From a candidate division WOR-3 bacterium (GTDB taxonomy: Bacteria > Hydrothermota > Tepidihabitantia > Tepidihabitantales > CAIPLT01), in contig JBDRUV010000011.1 of assembly GCA_039801505.1 (NCBI GenBank), positions 1 to 33,189 of the forward strand: a stretch of DNA of 33,189 bases, given 5' to 3'. The notes below the pieces were generated by a model that did not search any database, was not told where the DNA came from, and saw only the letters and a program-made list of their open reading frames with translations. Position numbers and translations under genes: made by a program. The number at the start of each line of letters is the position of its first letter. Position 1 is the first letter of the stretch. Of the stretch, positions 5,757-31,971 are shown in pieces.

Positions 5757-5784
5757 TTGACAAGTTTTGTAATTTTTGTATAAT
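5757..5784 (+). promoter_or_regulatory. Promoter of second moron-like unit
   Basis: Perfect TTGACA (5757-5762) and perfect TATAAT (5779-5784) with a 16-bp spacer. The ~29 bases ending at the -35 match the upstream part of the promoter at 3297 except for one extra A, so the two are recently related copies. Confidence 0.9.
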
Positions 5785-5843
5785 ATAGGCGTATGAAGTT
5801 AAAAAAGTTAAAAAAAGAAATTTAAACGAAAGGAGGTGAGAGT

Positions 5844-6347
5844 ATGAAGAATATGAATTGTTATACTGTTACGGTTTACAAGGATCGTCGGAAGCCGGAC
5901 TTAAAACCCGGCATTCCCACCGAAATAGTTTCGGTGGGGGGGAGGCAATTTAGATTCGTTAAAGGCCTCCCCGTTCAAGTTCGTGGACCTGACAGGTGCG
6001 GGCGGATTGACGACCAAAACCTGGAAATGCTGTATCGAGCGATTTCGTGCAACGGCGAATTTGCGACGTATTTAGTTCCGTTGGTTCCGCAGGATGAAAC
6101 CGACGAGTGGTTTGTTCTGCTAGAGTATCCTGATGGTTTTCCGCTTCAGGATACTCTAGATGCTGATGCTGATGAATTGCAACCGAGGTGTCTTCTTAAC
6201 GGAAGACGCCTCTACACAGGAACGGAAAAGATTCTGTACCAGCTCAACGAAAATGGCGTAATTGACCTTCGAAACGATTATGTTCTTTTTGTATCCCAGG
6301 GCGAATTATACATTGACCATAAGGGTTATGTACTGGCTATTTTGTAG
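5844..6347 (+). CDS. Moron-like gene 2, hypothetical protein with hairpin-rich mRNA
   Basis: AGGAGGTGAG (5831-5840) precedes ATG 5844; a second ATG at 5853 would give MNCYTVTVYKD directly. The 167-residue product is acidic, with DETDEW and TLDADADEL stretches, and has no recognised family, signal peptide or membrane segment. The unit has its own promoter and terminator and lies between a membrane protein and the terminase. Its coding sequence contains at least five long inverted repeats (10, 8, 14, 11 and 17 bp), the last one including the stop codon. The N-terminus (NCYTV) and promoter tie it to the gene at 3384. Confidence 0.75.
   Translation: MKNMNCYTVTVYKDRRKPDLKPGIPTEIVSVGGRQFRFVKGLPVQVRGPDRCGRIDDQNLEMLYRAISCNGEFATYLVPLVPQDETDEWFVLLEYPDGFPLQDTLDADADELQPRCLLNGRRLYTGTEKILYQLNENGVIDLRNDYVLFVSQGELYIDHKGYVLAIL
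5894..5972 (+). repeat. Three consecutive hairpins inside moron gene 2
   Basis: GCCGG/CCGGC (5894-5898, 5908-5912); CCCACCGAAA/TTTCGGTGGG (5916-5925, 5929-5938; 10 bp perfect, 3-nt loop); and GGGGAGGC/GCCTCCCC (5939-5946, 5965-5972; 8 bp perfect). The second and third abut with no base between them. All are in the coding region. Confidence 0.9.
6120..6159 (+). repeat. 14-bp perfect inverted repeat inside moron gene 2
   Basis: CTAGAGTATCCTGA (6120-6133) and TCAGGATACTCTAG (6146-6159) are perfect reverse complements separated by 12 bases. They encode the segments LLEYPD and QDTLD. A 14-bp perfect stem inside a coding region is far beyond chance for a gene of 500 bp. Confidence 0.95.
6185..6212 (+). 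repeat. 11-bp hairpin inside moron gene 2
   Basis: GAGGTGTCTTC (6185-6195), 6-nt loop, GAAGACGCCTC (6202-6212). The stem is 11 bp with a single G-U pair, so it is intact at RNA level. Confidence 0.9.
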
Positions 6348-6361
6348 CCAGTACATAACCC
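6323..6361 (+). repeat. 17-bp perfect hairpin across the stop codon of moron gene 2
   Basis: GGGTTATGTACTGGCTA (6323-6339), 5-nt loop TTTTG, TAGCCAGTACATAACCC (6345-6361). The 3' arm begins exactly at the TAG stop, so the last codons of the gene and the stop are in the stem. No T-tract follows, so it is not itself a standard terminator; the real terminator is just downstream. Confidence 0.95.
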
Positions 6362-6365
6362 AAAC

Positions 6366-6397
6366 CCCCGAGGGATTACCCCCCTCGAGGATTTTTT
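6366..6397 (+). terminator. Rho-independent terminator
   Basis: CCCCGAGGG (6366-6374) pairs with CCCTCGAGG (6382-6390; one mismatch) and is followed by ATTTTTT (6391-6397). It closes the second moron-like unit and resembles the CCCCCGAGG terminator of the first unit. Confidence 0.8.
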
Positions 6398-6437
6398 ATG
6401 AATAGGGTGGAAGGAGGGAAAAAGTAAAAAAGGGGGT

Positions 6438-6506
6438 CGGGGCTGGGCTCCCGCCAAATCGCACCCATCATAGCCTACTTTACACCTGCCCAGCCCCGTT
6501 TTTTTT
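6438..6506 (+). other. GC-rich 11-bp stem with 39-nt loop and T-tract upstream of terminase
   Basis: CGGGGCTGGGC (6438-6448) and GCCCAGCCCCG (6488-6498) are perfect complements enclosing 39 bases, followed by eight T residues. It may be a terminator with a large loop. Its position, 60-130 bp before the small terminase gene, is also where lambda-type phages keep the cos packaging site, so a packaging role is possible. The sequence does not decide between these. Confidence 0.6.
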
Positions 6507-6523
6507 ATTTTTTATAAAGCCTC

Positions 6524-6551
6524 TTGACAAGACATAGCATTTTTTTTTATT
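6524..6551 (+). promoter_or_regulatory. Probable late promoter for packaging operon
   Basis: Perfect TTGACA (6524-6529) followed by AAG as in the other promoters here; at the shared 16-bp spacing the -10 is TTTATT (6546-6551), 4 of 6 to consensus, in a T-rich stretch. The weak -10 may mean that an activator is needed, as for many late promoters. It precedes the small terminase gene by about 20 bp. Confidence 0.55.
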
Positions 6552-6569
6552 TTTAAGCAGGAGAACTGT

Positions 6570-6971
6570 ATGGAGGGGCAGAAGAAGGTTAGAGGTCGAC
6601 CTTTTCAGAAGGGGTATGATCCCCGTCGGAACTTAAATGGTCGAGGGCATACACGGGATTTTTTAACTTCGTATCATTTGGCGTTGCGGAAGATTGCTGA
6701 GAATGTTGCTTCGACGGAAGAGGATGTTGAGTTAAAGATAATTGAGGTTGCGATAGCGAAGGCGTTGGCGGGTAATTTTTATTTTTATCGTGATTTAATG
6801 GACAGGGTGTTTGGTAAGGCGACGGATACGATACAGGTGCGGGCGGAGTTAGAGGGTGAGCGTAAGCCTGATTTGGAGATGGTTGGGTGGTTTTTGGAGA
6901 GGATGCCTGAGCGGGAGCGGTTGCGGGTGATAAGAGAGTTTGTGAAGTGGCGATATAAGGACCGGGTTTAG
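6570..6971 (+). CDS. Terminase small subunit (DUF5681-like N-terminus)
   Basis: AGGAG at 6559-6563 sets the ATG. The N-terminus RGRPFQKGYDPRRNLNGR is the DUF5681 signature found in phage small terminases; the rest (ENVASTEEDVELKIIEVAIA, then MDRVFGKATDTIQVRAELEG) is typical of such proteins. It would recognise the packaging site and load the large subunit, whose gene starts 15 bp later. A 133-residue length is normal for the type. Confidence 0.85.
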   Translation: MEGQKKVRGRPFQKGYDPRRNLNGRGHTRDFLTSYHLALRKIAENVASTEEDVELKIIEVAIAKALAGNFYFYRDLMDRVFGKATDTIQVRAELEGERKPDLEMVGWFLERMPERERLRVIREFVKWRYKDRV

Positions 6972-6986
6972 TTTTTTTAGGTTTCA

Positions 6987-8504
6987 ATGCGTCAGCCTCG
7001 TATAATTTGGGTGCTTGAGAATTATTGTGTTAGGGGAGAGCCGATATCTTTTTCTGAATATCGCTATATGTTGGACATATATGCGGATGAGGCGCAACGG
7101 ATAGTGGTTAAGAAGTCGGCGCAGTGTGGTGGGTCGGAGTGGTTGATTGCTGAGAGTTTATATTTGGCTGGTTATTTGGGGTTAGTTGTGGTGTATTATT
7201 TTCCGCATCAGTCGCAGGCGAATGATTTTTCGTGGGACAGGATAAACAGGGCGATATTGGGTTCGCCGGGCATTAAGCGGTTGGTTAAGAACATTGACAA
7301 TGTGAAGTTGAAGCAGGTTGGTGATGGTTCGATTTATATTCGTGGTGCTGATTCGATGGACAATGTGGTGAATGTGGCGGCGGATTGTATATTGCGGGAT
7401 GAGGAGGATTTAATTAATCCAGAGGTGATACCAGTGATGGAGGAGCGGTTAGGTGCGTCGGCGTATAAGTTGGTGCGTGTGATAGGTAATCCGACGATTC
7501 CGAATTTTGGGATTGACAAGTTATACATAGAGAGTGATAGGCGGCGGTGGTTTTTGAGGTGTGAGCATTGTAATGAGTGGCAGTATTTAGTTTTTCCTGA
7601 CAATATAGATTTTCAGAGGCGTGTTGTGGTGTGTAGGAAGTGTCGTGGAGAGATGGACAGGTCGGCGGATGGTGAGTGGGTTGCTGAGTATCCAAGTCGT
7701 GATGTGCATGGTTATCATATTAGTCAGCTTATTAATCCTCGTGTCAGTGTGGATGAGATAATAGCGAAGTCGCAGCGGAAGTCGGAGAGTGAGATACAGG
7801 CGTTTTACAATTTTGTTTTAGGTGAGGCGAGGGTGCCGCAGGGTCAGCAGTTTAATGAGGCGATGATAATGAAGTGTTGTGAGCCGCAGTATGTGATGCC
7901 GGTGCAGAGTGATGAGGCGACGACGGCGGGGGTAGATGTTGGCAAGTTATTTCACATTAGGGTATCGAGGGTTGAGAATGGTAAGCGTCGTGCGGTATTT
8001 ATAGGTGCTACGTCGTCGTATGCTGATTTGGAGGCTATTTTGCGTCGTTATCGCTCGTTGTATGTTGTGATAGATGCGGCTCCTGAGACGAGGTTGGCGA
8101 AGGATTTGGCTGGTAAGTTAGTCGGGCGGGTTTATTTGGCTTATTTTAATGACAATCAGAAGGAGTTGTATGTTGTGAAGAAGGTTGAGAATTACAATGT
8201 TGTAATGATAAATCGCACGCAGGCGATGGATGTTGCTTATGCGGATTTTTTGGAGTGTCAAAACATTTTGCCGCAGAATTTACCGCCTGATTATGTAAGT
8301 CATTTATTAAATGCGACAAGGCGGATAGAGAAGGACAAATATGGCAATGATAAGCCTGTTTGGGTGCGGGCAGGCGACGACCATTACTTTTTAGCCGAGG
8401 TGTATGACACCATAGCCAAGCATATCTATTTGGATGTCTTGTCAAAGGTTCAGAAAATAAAAACTAAAATAATAAAGCCCAGCATACAAATTGAGAAGTT
8501 TTAG
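6987..8504 (+). CDS. terL: Terminase large subunit, lambda GpA-like
   Basis: 505 residues. The N-terminal ATPase has a Walker A-like KKSAQCGGSE (42-51) and Walker B CILRDEEDL (134-142). A zinc ribbon C192-x2-C195...C216-x2-C219 lies between the domains, as in GpA-family enzymes. The C-terminal RNase H-like nuclease shows D317 (GVDVG), D363 (VVIDAAPE) and D465-H466 (AGDDHYFLAEVYD). It cuts concatemers and pumps DNA into the prohead through the portal. The ribosome site is weak, so coupling to the small subunit gene is likely. Confidence 0.93.
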   Translation: MRQPRIIWVLENYCVRGEPISFSEYRYMLDIYADEAQRIVVKKSAQCGGSEWLIAESLYLAGYLGLVVVYYFPHQSQANDFSWDRINRAILGSPGIKRLVKNIDNVKLKQVGDGSIYIRGADSMDNVVNVAADCILRDEEDLINPEVIPVMEERLGASAYKLVRVIGNPTIPNFGIDKLYIESDRRRWFLRCEHCNEWQYLVFPDNIDFQRRVVVCRKCRGEMDRSADGEWVAEYPSRDVHGYHISQLINPRVSVDEIIAKSQRKSESEIQAFYNFVLGEARVPQGQQFNEAMIMKCCEPQYVMPVQSDEATTAGVDVGKLFHIRVSRVENGKRRAVFIGATSSYADLEAILRRYRSLYVVIDAAPETRLAKDLAGKLVGRVYLAYFNDNQKELYVVKKVENYNVVMINRTQAMDVAYADFLECQNILPQNLPPDYVSHLLNATRRIEKDKYGNDKPVWVRAGDDHYFLAEVYDTIAKHIYLDVLSKVQKIKTKIIKPSIQIEKF

Positions 8505-30735: not shown

Positions 30736-31971
30736 ATGTTTAGACCAGATTTTTTGATTATCCCAACTCAATTGATAACTGACAAACGATTAACTCCAAC
30801 CGACTGCCTCGTCTTTAGCGTTATATATTGGTCCGAACATCTAAAAAACGGCAGATGTCTACTATCAAATGAAGTCATTGGCAAAATAATCTTAAAAGAT
30901 ACCGGCACTGTAGCCAACTCTATATCAAAACTTCGCCAACTCGGCTATGTCGGTATAATCCGACACGGCAATATGCGCGAACTTACAACCCAAATCGCAT
31001 TCAAAACCATTAAAGTAGCCCCCTCTCTACTACCCGAGGGGGCTACGTCCCCTCAAAATGTGGATAACCTGTGGATAACTCAAAAACTTACCAAAAATGA
31101 AGCTACTATATATAGTGGTTCTTTAAAAAATAAAGCACAAAATGTAGGGGGTGGATGTATGGTTTCATTAAATAATGAAGCACTTTCATTAAATAATGAA
31201 GAGGTTTCATTAAATAATGAAACGCTTTCATTAAATAATGAACATAAAGAGAATATAATAGAGAATATAAATATATATAATCTCACTTTTAATAATAAAA
31301 GTGAGAGCGTTGGTAAAAGCAACGCTCCTCCTTTTTCTTTGTCTGATGATGTATCACTAAAGGAAAGGAAAAAGTATTATGCTTGGTTAAACTCGGTGGC
31401 AAAGAGGCTGGTTGACGTGTGGAACGAGTATGGTATTTTGCCGATGCAGGATGTTAAAAACTCGTTGCCGGTGGCGTATCGACGGTTGGTATTCCCGGTG
31501 ATAGAGCGGGTGGGGGAGGGTCGTTTGGAGTGTGCGATAAGGTTTTATTTTTGGTGTGTGCGGAACAATTTAGCCAGTGCGATAGATTTTGTGAGGTGGT
31601 TTACGTGGCGTAAGTATAATGAGTTTCAGGTGATAGATATTTTTTCTGATAATACGATTGAGCAGTTAGGCAGGTTGATAAGTTTTTATGAGGAGGCGAA
31701 GAGTAAGGGGGCTTTGATGGTGTTTATGAGCAGGTTATCAAATTCGCGGATGTGGAGTCGGATAAGTATGCATCATGGTGGTATTTTGGAGAAGTTGGAG
31801 CGTCAAAACAGGAGTGTTATAGAGTTGATAGAGTTTTATAGTGATTTATTAGTGAGGATAAAGGGGCAAGGGGCGAGGTCAAATACGTCCCAAGAGTCAA
31901 AAGAGCAAAAAGAGCCAAAAAAAGAGCCAAAAGAGAAGCAAGAGCAGGGGGAGCAAGGAGGGGTAAAATGA
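30736..31971 (+). CDS. Replication initiator, lambda O-like organisation
   Basis: 411 residues. The N-terminal ~95 form a winged helix of the HTH_36 type (RLTPTDCLVFSVIYWSEHLK, then IILKDTGTVANSISKLRQLG). Residues about 95-205 are a low-complexity linker that contains the iterons (four SLNNE repeats). The C-terminal ~200 residues are helical and probably contact the replication machinery (helicase loading is the lambda O role). The N-terminal half is C-rich in the + strand and the C-terminal half strongly G-rich, so the gene looks like a fusion joined at the origin. An acidic/basic KE-rich tail ends the protein. Confidence 0.8.
   Translation: MFRPDFLIIPTQLITDKRLTPTDCLVFSVIYWSEHLKNGRCLLSNEVIGKIILKDTGTVANSISKLRQLGYVGIIRHGNMRELTTQIAFKTIKVAPSLLPEGATSPQNVDNLWITQKLTKNEATIYSGSLKNKAQNVGGGCMVSLNNEALSLNNEEVSLNNETLSLNNEHKENIIENINIYNLTFNNKSESVGKSNAPPFSLSDDVSLKERKKYYAWLNSVAKRLVDVWNEYGILPMQDVKNSLPVAYRRLVFPVIERVGEGRLECAIRFYFWCVRNNLASAIDFVRWFTWRKYNEFQVIDIFSDNTIEQLGRLISFYEEAKSKGALMVFMSRLSNSRMWSRISMHHGGILEKLERQNRSVIELIEFYSDLLVRIKGQGARSNTSQESKEQKEPKKEPKEKQEQGEQGGVK
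31059..31078 (-). promoter_or_regulatory. Two perfect DnaA boxes
   Basis: TGTGGATAA at 31059-31067 and 31070-31078, each the exact reverse complement of the DnaA box TTATCCACA. Their 11-bp period puts them on the same face of the helix. They suggest that host DnaA takes part in origin opening. Confidence 0.8.
31164..31242 (+). repeat. Four origin iterons, 21-bp period
   Basis: TTCATTAAATAATGAA (arms TTCATTA and TAATGAA around AA) at 31164-31179, 31185-31200, 31206-31221 and 31227-31242, all identical. The 21-bp spacing is two helical turns and seven codons, so it is in phase both with the helix and the reading frame (SLNNE units). Likely binding sites for the initiator's winged helix. Confidence 0.93.

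Follow-up and report, generated by a model that had tools for sequence, protein, structure and literature searches.

Bacteriophage morons have their own promoter and terminator and an alien composition, and they lie among the genes of the structural modules. With respect to coding sequences, the PACKEIS survey (PMC6544989) reported that viral ORFs are enriched in synonymous-codon arrangements giving structure above that of shuffled sequences, with lower values for dsDNA viruses. Its fractions are given at class level and, in its main text, the word phage does not appear. Genome-scale ordered RNA structure (GORS) is known from RNA viruses (PMC3695492). There the structure is spread across the coding sequence. 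Selection on local folding in coding sequences, described as species averages of cellular genes, is known across life and is reported to be weak in hyperthermophiles (PMC7063772). Finally, template-switch mutation at quasi-palindromes (PMC7202029) is known from single-site mutational hotspots, and whole genes are not known to be shaped by it. The stems that it leaves would be perfectly Watson-Crick paired on both strands.

The putative moron described here shares traits with these systems. As in the PACKEIS survey, the arrangement of its codons yields more structure than shuffles do; as in GORS, this structure is spread across the coding sequence; it was measured against randomised nulls, as in the study of local folding; and its stems are found on both strands, as template switching would leave them. 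In contrast to the PACKEIS survey, single genes that carry long perfect stems reach here z values between -6 and -12, and only short accessory genes are involved; unlike in the study of local folding, a single phage gene is concerned. Searches of open-access journal papers brought up none that describes accessory genes tiled with hairpins in a dsDNA phage. Over-structured viral ORFs are already in print, and this degree of structure in an accessory gene of a dsDNA phage looks like a variant of them.

Location and organization of the cassette

The window, that is, the whole stretch of DNA that was analysed, is a complete contig of 33,189 bases (C11) from a 1.94-Mb bin of 57 contigs, apparently a metagenome bin. 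A leucyl-tRNA synthetase of this bin, named from its translation, shares 88% identity with the enzyme of a candidate division WOR-3 bacterium. Profile searches identified large terminase, portal, head and tail tape-measure genes and, as a consequence, the contig was assigned to a tailed phage or prophage. Its closest terminase relatives among viral contigs show 28-33% identity. GORS concerns RNA genomes, whereas one mRNA of a dsDNA phage is involved here, the large terminase, portal and head genes being of the dsDNA packaging type. The ORF at 5844-6347 is preceded by a DNA methyltransferase gene and a small ORF, and followed by another small ORF, presumably that of the small terminase, and then by the large terminase gene. 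The elements of the cassette and its surroundings are the following:

5757-5784, plus strand: sigma-70 promoter of the cassette (TTGACA-16-TATAAT; 12/12 match to the consensus)
5826-5839, plus strand: perfect Shine-Dalgarno region ACGAAAGGAGGTGA, which also precedes an hsp20-like host gene (C18:6116-6129)
5844-6347, plus strand: orphan ORF of 167 aa with an over-folded coding sequence (from folding against shuffles and from relative and profile searches)
6369-6397, plus strand: intrinsic terminator of the cassette
6438-6508, plus strand: second terminator-like element preceding the terminase gene, with an 11-bp stem, a 39-nt loop and a T run (read from the sequence)

The element at 6438-6508 sits between the cassette terminator and a promoter-like site (6524-6553) ahead of the presumed small terminase. 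An A-rich leader separates the promoter from the Shine-Dalgarno region, and its identity with the leader of the hsp20-like gene on C18, a name given from a reading of the translation without a profile match, is 84% over about 55 bases. Thus, the phage cassette (window 5800-5850) and the host gene (L021 on C18, 6086-6140) share an unusual leader and Shine-Dalgarno region.

Like morons, the cassette has, as sequence features, its own promoter (5757-5784) and terminator (6369-6397) within a phage gene module, and it lies amid structural-module genes. Its composition is also unlike that of the neighbouring genes: the GC skew is 0.13 for the cassette vs 0.29 and 0.52, a value to be read knowing that hairpin-rich sequence by itself pushes the skew towards zero, and the codon-usage score is -0.08 for the ORF vs 0.12 and 0.32. 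Both composition and layout fit a captured, insulated and self-contained cassette. However, its protein matches no known moron family.

Relatives of the 167-aa product were found neither in viral contigs, phages and plasmids nor in the genome contigs of 84,980 species. Among 198 other genomes the one match (G194, E 0.0019) was judged to be noise, because the gene there reads as an ABC transporter and the match falls on its minus strand. Profile searches gave no match above the cut-off and no sequence match was found in the PDB. AlphaFold2 run on the single sequence yielded a pLDDT of 32 and no usable model.

Folding of the cassette gene

The following stems were identified in the cassette:

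5894-5898/5908-5912, plus strand: 5-bp stem (read from the sequence and paired in the predicted fold)
5916-5925/5929-5938, plus strand: 10-bp perfect hairpin, loop of 3 nt (inverted-repeat search)
5939-5946/5965-5972, plus strand: 8-bp perfect hairpin, loop of 18 nt (inverted-repeat search)
6120-6133/6146-6159, plus strand: 14-bp perfect hairpin, loop of 12 nt (inverted-repeat search)
6185-6195/6202-6212, plus strand: 11-bp hairpin with one G-U pair, loop of 6 nt (read from the sequence and paired in the predicted folds)
6323-6339/6345-6361, plus strand: 17-bp perfect hairpin, loop of 5 nt, including the stop codon (inverted-repeat search)

All six inverted repeats and the terminator had been listed in an initial annotation of this region, which also placed the stop codon in the 17-bp stem, and all were found; TAG (6345-6347) falls within the right arm. 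That annotation had further proposed a comparison with dinucleotide- and codon-shuffled controls, and the sequence folds beyond all of them. The energy of the 554 nt was -225.5 kcal/mol vs -158 ± 6.4 for 100 dinucleotide shuffles, none of which was as good (z -10.6). The ORF alone gave -185, compared with -146.7 ± 6.2 for 200 synonymous-codon shuffles (z about -6.2, remaining at -5.6 at 70 C) and with -141.2 ± 6.6 for 200 codon-order shuffles (z -6.6). It therefore shows the excess over synonymous shuffles that marks over-structured viral coding sequences. The longest stem lying fully within the ORF has 14 bp, a length that none of 400 synonymous shuffles reached (maximum 11 bp), and the capacity of the protein to encode stems was ordinary.

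The initial estimate that a 14-bp stem would occur by chance once in 10^4-10^5 genes was too strong, since 3 of 363 ORFs (taken with 20 nt downstream) have stems of at least 14 bp, this one included. With loops of 3-40 nt, the bin sample of 386,547 bases had 3 such stems; in 557 nt about 0.004 would be expected and 2 were observed (Poisson probability about 1e-5). By local-fold z the ORF ranked first of the 43 ORFs in the window and ninth of the 612 sampled in the bin. The antisense strand of the cassette also folds strongly (z -8.8), as stems that are nearly pure Watson-Crick would lead one to expect. The predicted unpaired probability was 0.80 at 5790-5819 and 0.11-0.59 over the ORF and the 3' tail; positions 5820-5849, where the ribosome site and the start lie, were not clearly open (0.45). 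Searches for other copies of the 17-bp stem gave the self match only in its own genome and no exact match in viral contigs, so the cassette does not have the copies elsewhere in the genome expected of a dispersed palindromic repeat element.

Over-folded genes in the bin and in viral loci

Among the 612 bin ORFs scored by local-fold z, 480 came from non-viral loci, and five of these had z < -4. The extreme cases were concentrated on contigs other than the window. Foremost among them, two adjoining genes of C15 (locus L018), a contig carrying a type-B DNA polymerase gene, were more extreme than the moron, with z about -11 to -12. Both, at 6422-7808 on the minus strand, consist almost entirely of perfect 7-11 bp hairpins, one per 40-60 bases, and near-identical intergenic hairpins precede two ribosome sites of this locus. 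The five viral-type contigs (L012, L018, L022, L046 and L056, the viral nature of the last not being established) were chosen partly for hairpin richness, and counts on them are not blind.

For avoiding this selection bias, a protein family of C15 ("INLTPH") was used as a probe and 72 viral loci were fetched by protein only; they represent the neighbourhood of one gene family, obtained with a single query that is itself hairpin-rich. The family gene, present in diverse viruses, had a mean z of -2.3, with 26 of the 72 below -3 (near-duplicates kept), and its stems differ. In these loci z was < -4 in 57 of 550 ORFs and at or below -6.2 in 13, while the 32 ORFs longer than 1200 nt had a mean of -0.36 and none < -4. 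Since the blind viral ORFs show this excess and the long ones do not, the moron is the tail of a tendency among short viral genes. What counts against its generality is C20 (L045), a contig with a terminase match, in which none of 15 ORFs had z < -3.

Nor were the other genes of the window over-folded, except for a replication-initiation-like ORF (z -4.2). Two 11-bp hairpins lie within it (31015-31046 and 31281-31306) and are possibly the phage origin. L022 and L046 (C19 and C21) belong to related phages with 83% identity over 9 kb and unlike accessory regions. L046 carries four tandem paralogues, two of them strongly over-folded and two much less so. Viral scans gave no relatives of this paralogue family or of the tiled L018b protein.

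Selection on the transcript or mutation of the DNA

We favour, with a confidence just short of even, the reading that the ORF is a moron: an accessory phage gene that is translated and whose mRNA, over-folded along its whole length, has no fixed fold and probably affects transcript decay. The codons would be arranged so as to give local hairpins along the whole mRNA, with no particular fold to conserve. Little single-stranded RNA would then be exposed to endonucleases and the transcript might live longer; a strong hairpin would seal its 3' end, and the leader ahead of the ribosome site would be left open for translation. What maintains the over-folding would be selection acting on the transcript and not mutation. 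It is read as selected because of the z of -6.2 against synonymous shuffles, the excess in short viral genes, the over-folding of a whole family and the conservation of stem arms. Against this stand the lack of preference for G-U, the lack of a sense-strand excess in the 38 strongest genes and the equality of the codon registers.

These last points bear on the main alternative, which is less probable, although far from negligible: palindromes would arise in the DNA when replication switches template at quasi-palindromes, and they would be tolerated in weakly constrained accessory genes, RNA structure being a by-product. Selection acting on RNA alone should favour G-U over A-C. Within the stems of 21 structured genes G-U was not preferred (28 vs 26 for A-C), as template switching, with stems almost all Watson-Crick, would have it; a test of G-U against A-C that used rRNA as control (16:7 under the strictest cut-off, counting the flanks) was suggestive and too small to decide. 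The two strands of the moron are nearly equally structured (local-fold z -6.3 vs -4.75), again in agreement with template switching. The sense minus antisense difference over 640 genes was -0.19 ± 0.05, with the sense strand ahead in 80 of 126 strong cases but in only 18 of the 38 strongest genes, and 260 chromosomal genes showed no difference (-0.05 ± 0.08). In addition, stems of at least 8 bp were in 2.6-3.2 fold excess in each codon register of viral genes, whereas the slight stem excess of chromosomal bin ORFs is confined to wobble-accessible registers, with none in the 3:3 register; both this flat excess and the concentration of over-folding in short accessory genes favour template switching.

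Comparison with relatives was made in other structured genes. Homologues keeping the protein and losing the stems, which according to the initial annotation would speak against its proposal, do exist for the C15 protein L018a: those in L046, L065 and L066 had z values of -1.5, +0.3 and -0.4, yet the family is over-folded overall. The two over-folded L046 paralogues, with 64% identity, have 44 of 165 pairs in common, so that the level of structure persists while positions turn over, a shift also in line with template switching; among 64 pairs in which one or both members differ, pairing is kept in 21 and lost in 43. Across 75 stems followed in relatives, the pairs changed on both sides were still Watson-Crick in 10 cases and not in 6, and one-side changes, not oriented by transcription, gave G-U in 27, A-C in 48 and other combinations in 55. 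The overwritten-arm pattern, with all changes in one arm, was present in only 4 of 26 stems with at least three changes, which argues against template switching, as does the survival of a hairpin despite two-sided changes at a few sites (L158/L159/L160).

For 32 stems of the "INLTPH" family the lower-arm percentile was 0.523 ± 0.049 (61 non-identical rows, with L220, L222, L223 and duplicates dropped and L018 and L046 added), so that the conservation of both arms equals that of random segments. Since they are conserved no differently from other segments, it is codons and not residues that make these stems. The template switching mentioned in the initial annotation thus agrees with the nearly pure Watson-Crick stems, the G-U counts and the equal registers, but not with the arm conservation of this one family.

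The stem-less homologues, the spectrum of stem changes, the G-U parity and the flat registers lean towards a DNA-level origin or a very weak protein constraint, and the overall sense excess, the arm conservation and the spread across viruses lean towards selection on codon choice. We infer that selection is about twice as probable as mutation, and not more. As for the pressure, type III CRISPR was discarded, because no Csm1 or Cmr2 was above the cut-off in the bin, Csm1 giving a sub-threshold match only, and there was no sign of this RNA-targeting defence. Strong heat was also discarded as the cause, since a 16S G+C of 56% does not point to a hyperthermophile.

Other readings of the hairpins

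It is improbable that the hairpins work in single-stranded DNA, whether during replication or recombination or when the cassette was captured. The near symmetry between strands would suit such a role and the alien composition suggests capture, but the stems lie throughout the gene body and not at the cassette ends, and no hairpin is repeated elsewhere in the genome.

A reading in which the locus makes one defined fold, either a specific structured RNA or an element controlling translation, and in which the ORF is secondary or has a dual function, is equally hard to credit, and the dedicated structured RNA suggested in the initial annotation is the least supported reading. The strong promoter and the terminators would agree with it, as would the fraction of bases in stems, 0.164 for the cassette gene vs 0.208 for a stretch of the same bin that reads as RNase P RNA. 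However, there was no Rfam match within the window, no part of the cassette has relatives in its own genome, in viral contigs or in the genome contigs of 84,980 species, and a 167-codon open frame stands behind a perfect ribosome site. In comparable contigs one of 15 four-base loops was GNRA, with no tetraloop enrichment, and stem sites are not kept in relatives of comparable genes; moreover, many other genes are likewise over-folded but with different stems.

An assembly or amplification artefact is very improbable: inverted chimeras exist and the window belongs to a presumed metagenome bin, but the frame that contains six different short stems is intact, and independent datasets show the trend too.

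Meaning for phage accessory genes

If the favoured reading of an over-folded mRNA is extended beyond this locus, it is conceivable, though rather doubtful, that many bacterial and archaeal viruses build their short accessory genes from local hairpins set one after another ("armoured" mRNAs), which would then characterise the class of gene and no protein in particular. Such mRNAs would perhaps outlast host nucleases or RNA-targeting defence, the moron and the two C15 genes being extreme cases. Most accessory genes of phages are orphans, and work on them deals with their proteins. Should over-folded mRNAs prove common among them but not among large virion genes, this would point to a pressure at the transcript level, such as decay or defence, or to a mutation process that makes palindromes. 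Either one, if true, would change the annotation of such ORFs and the reading of codon-based evolutionary tests.
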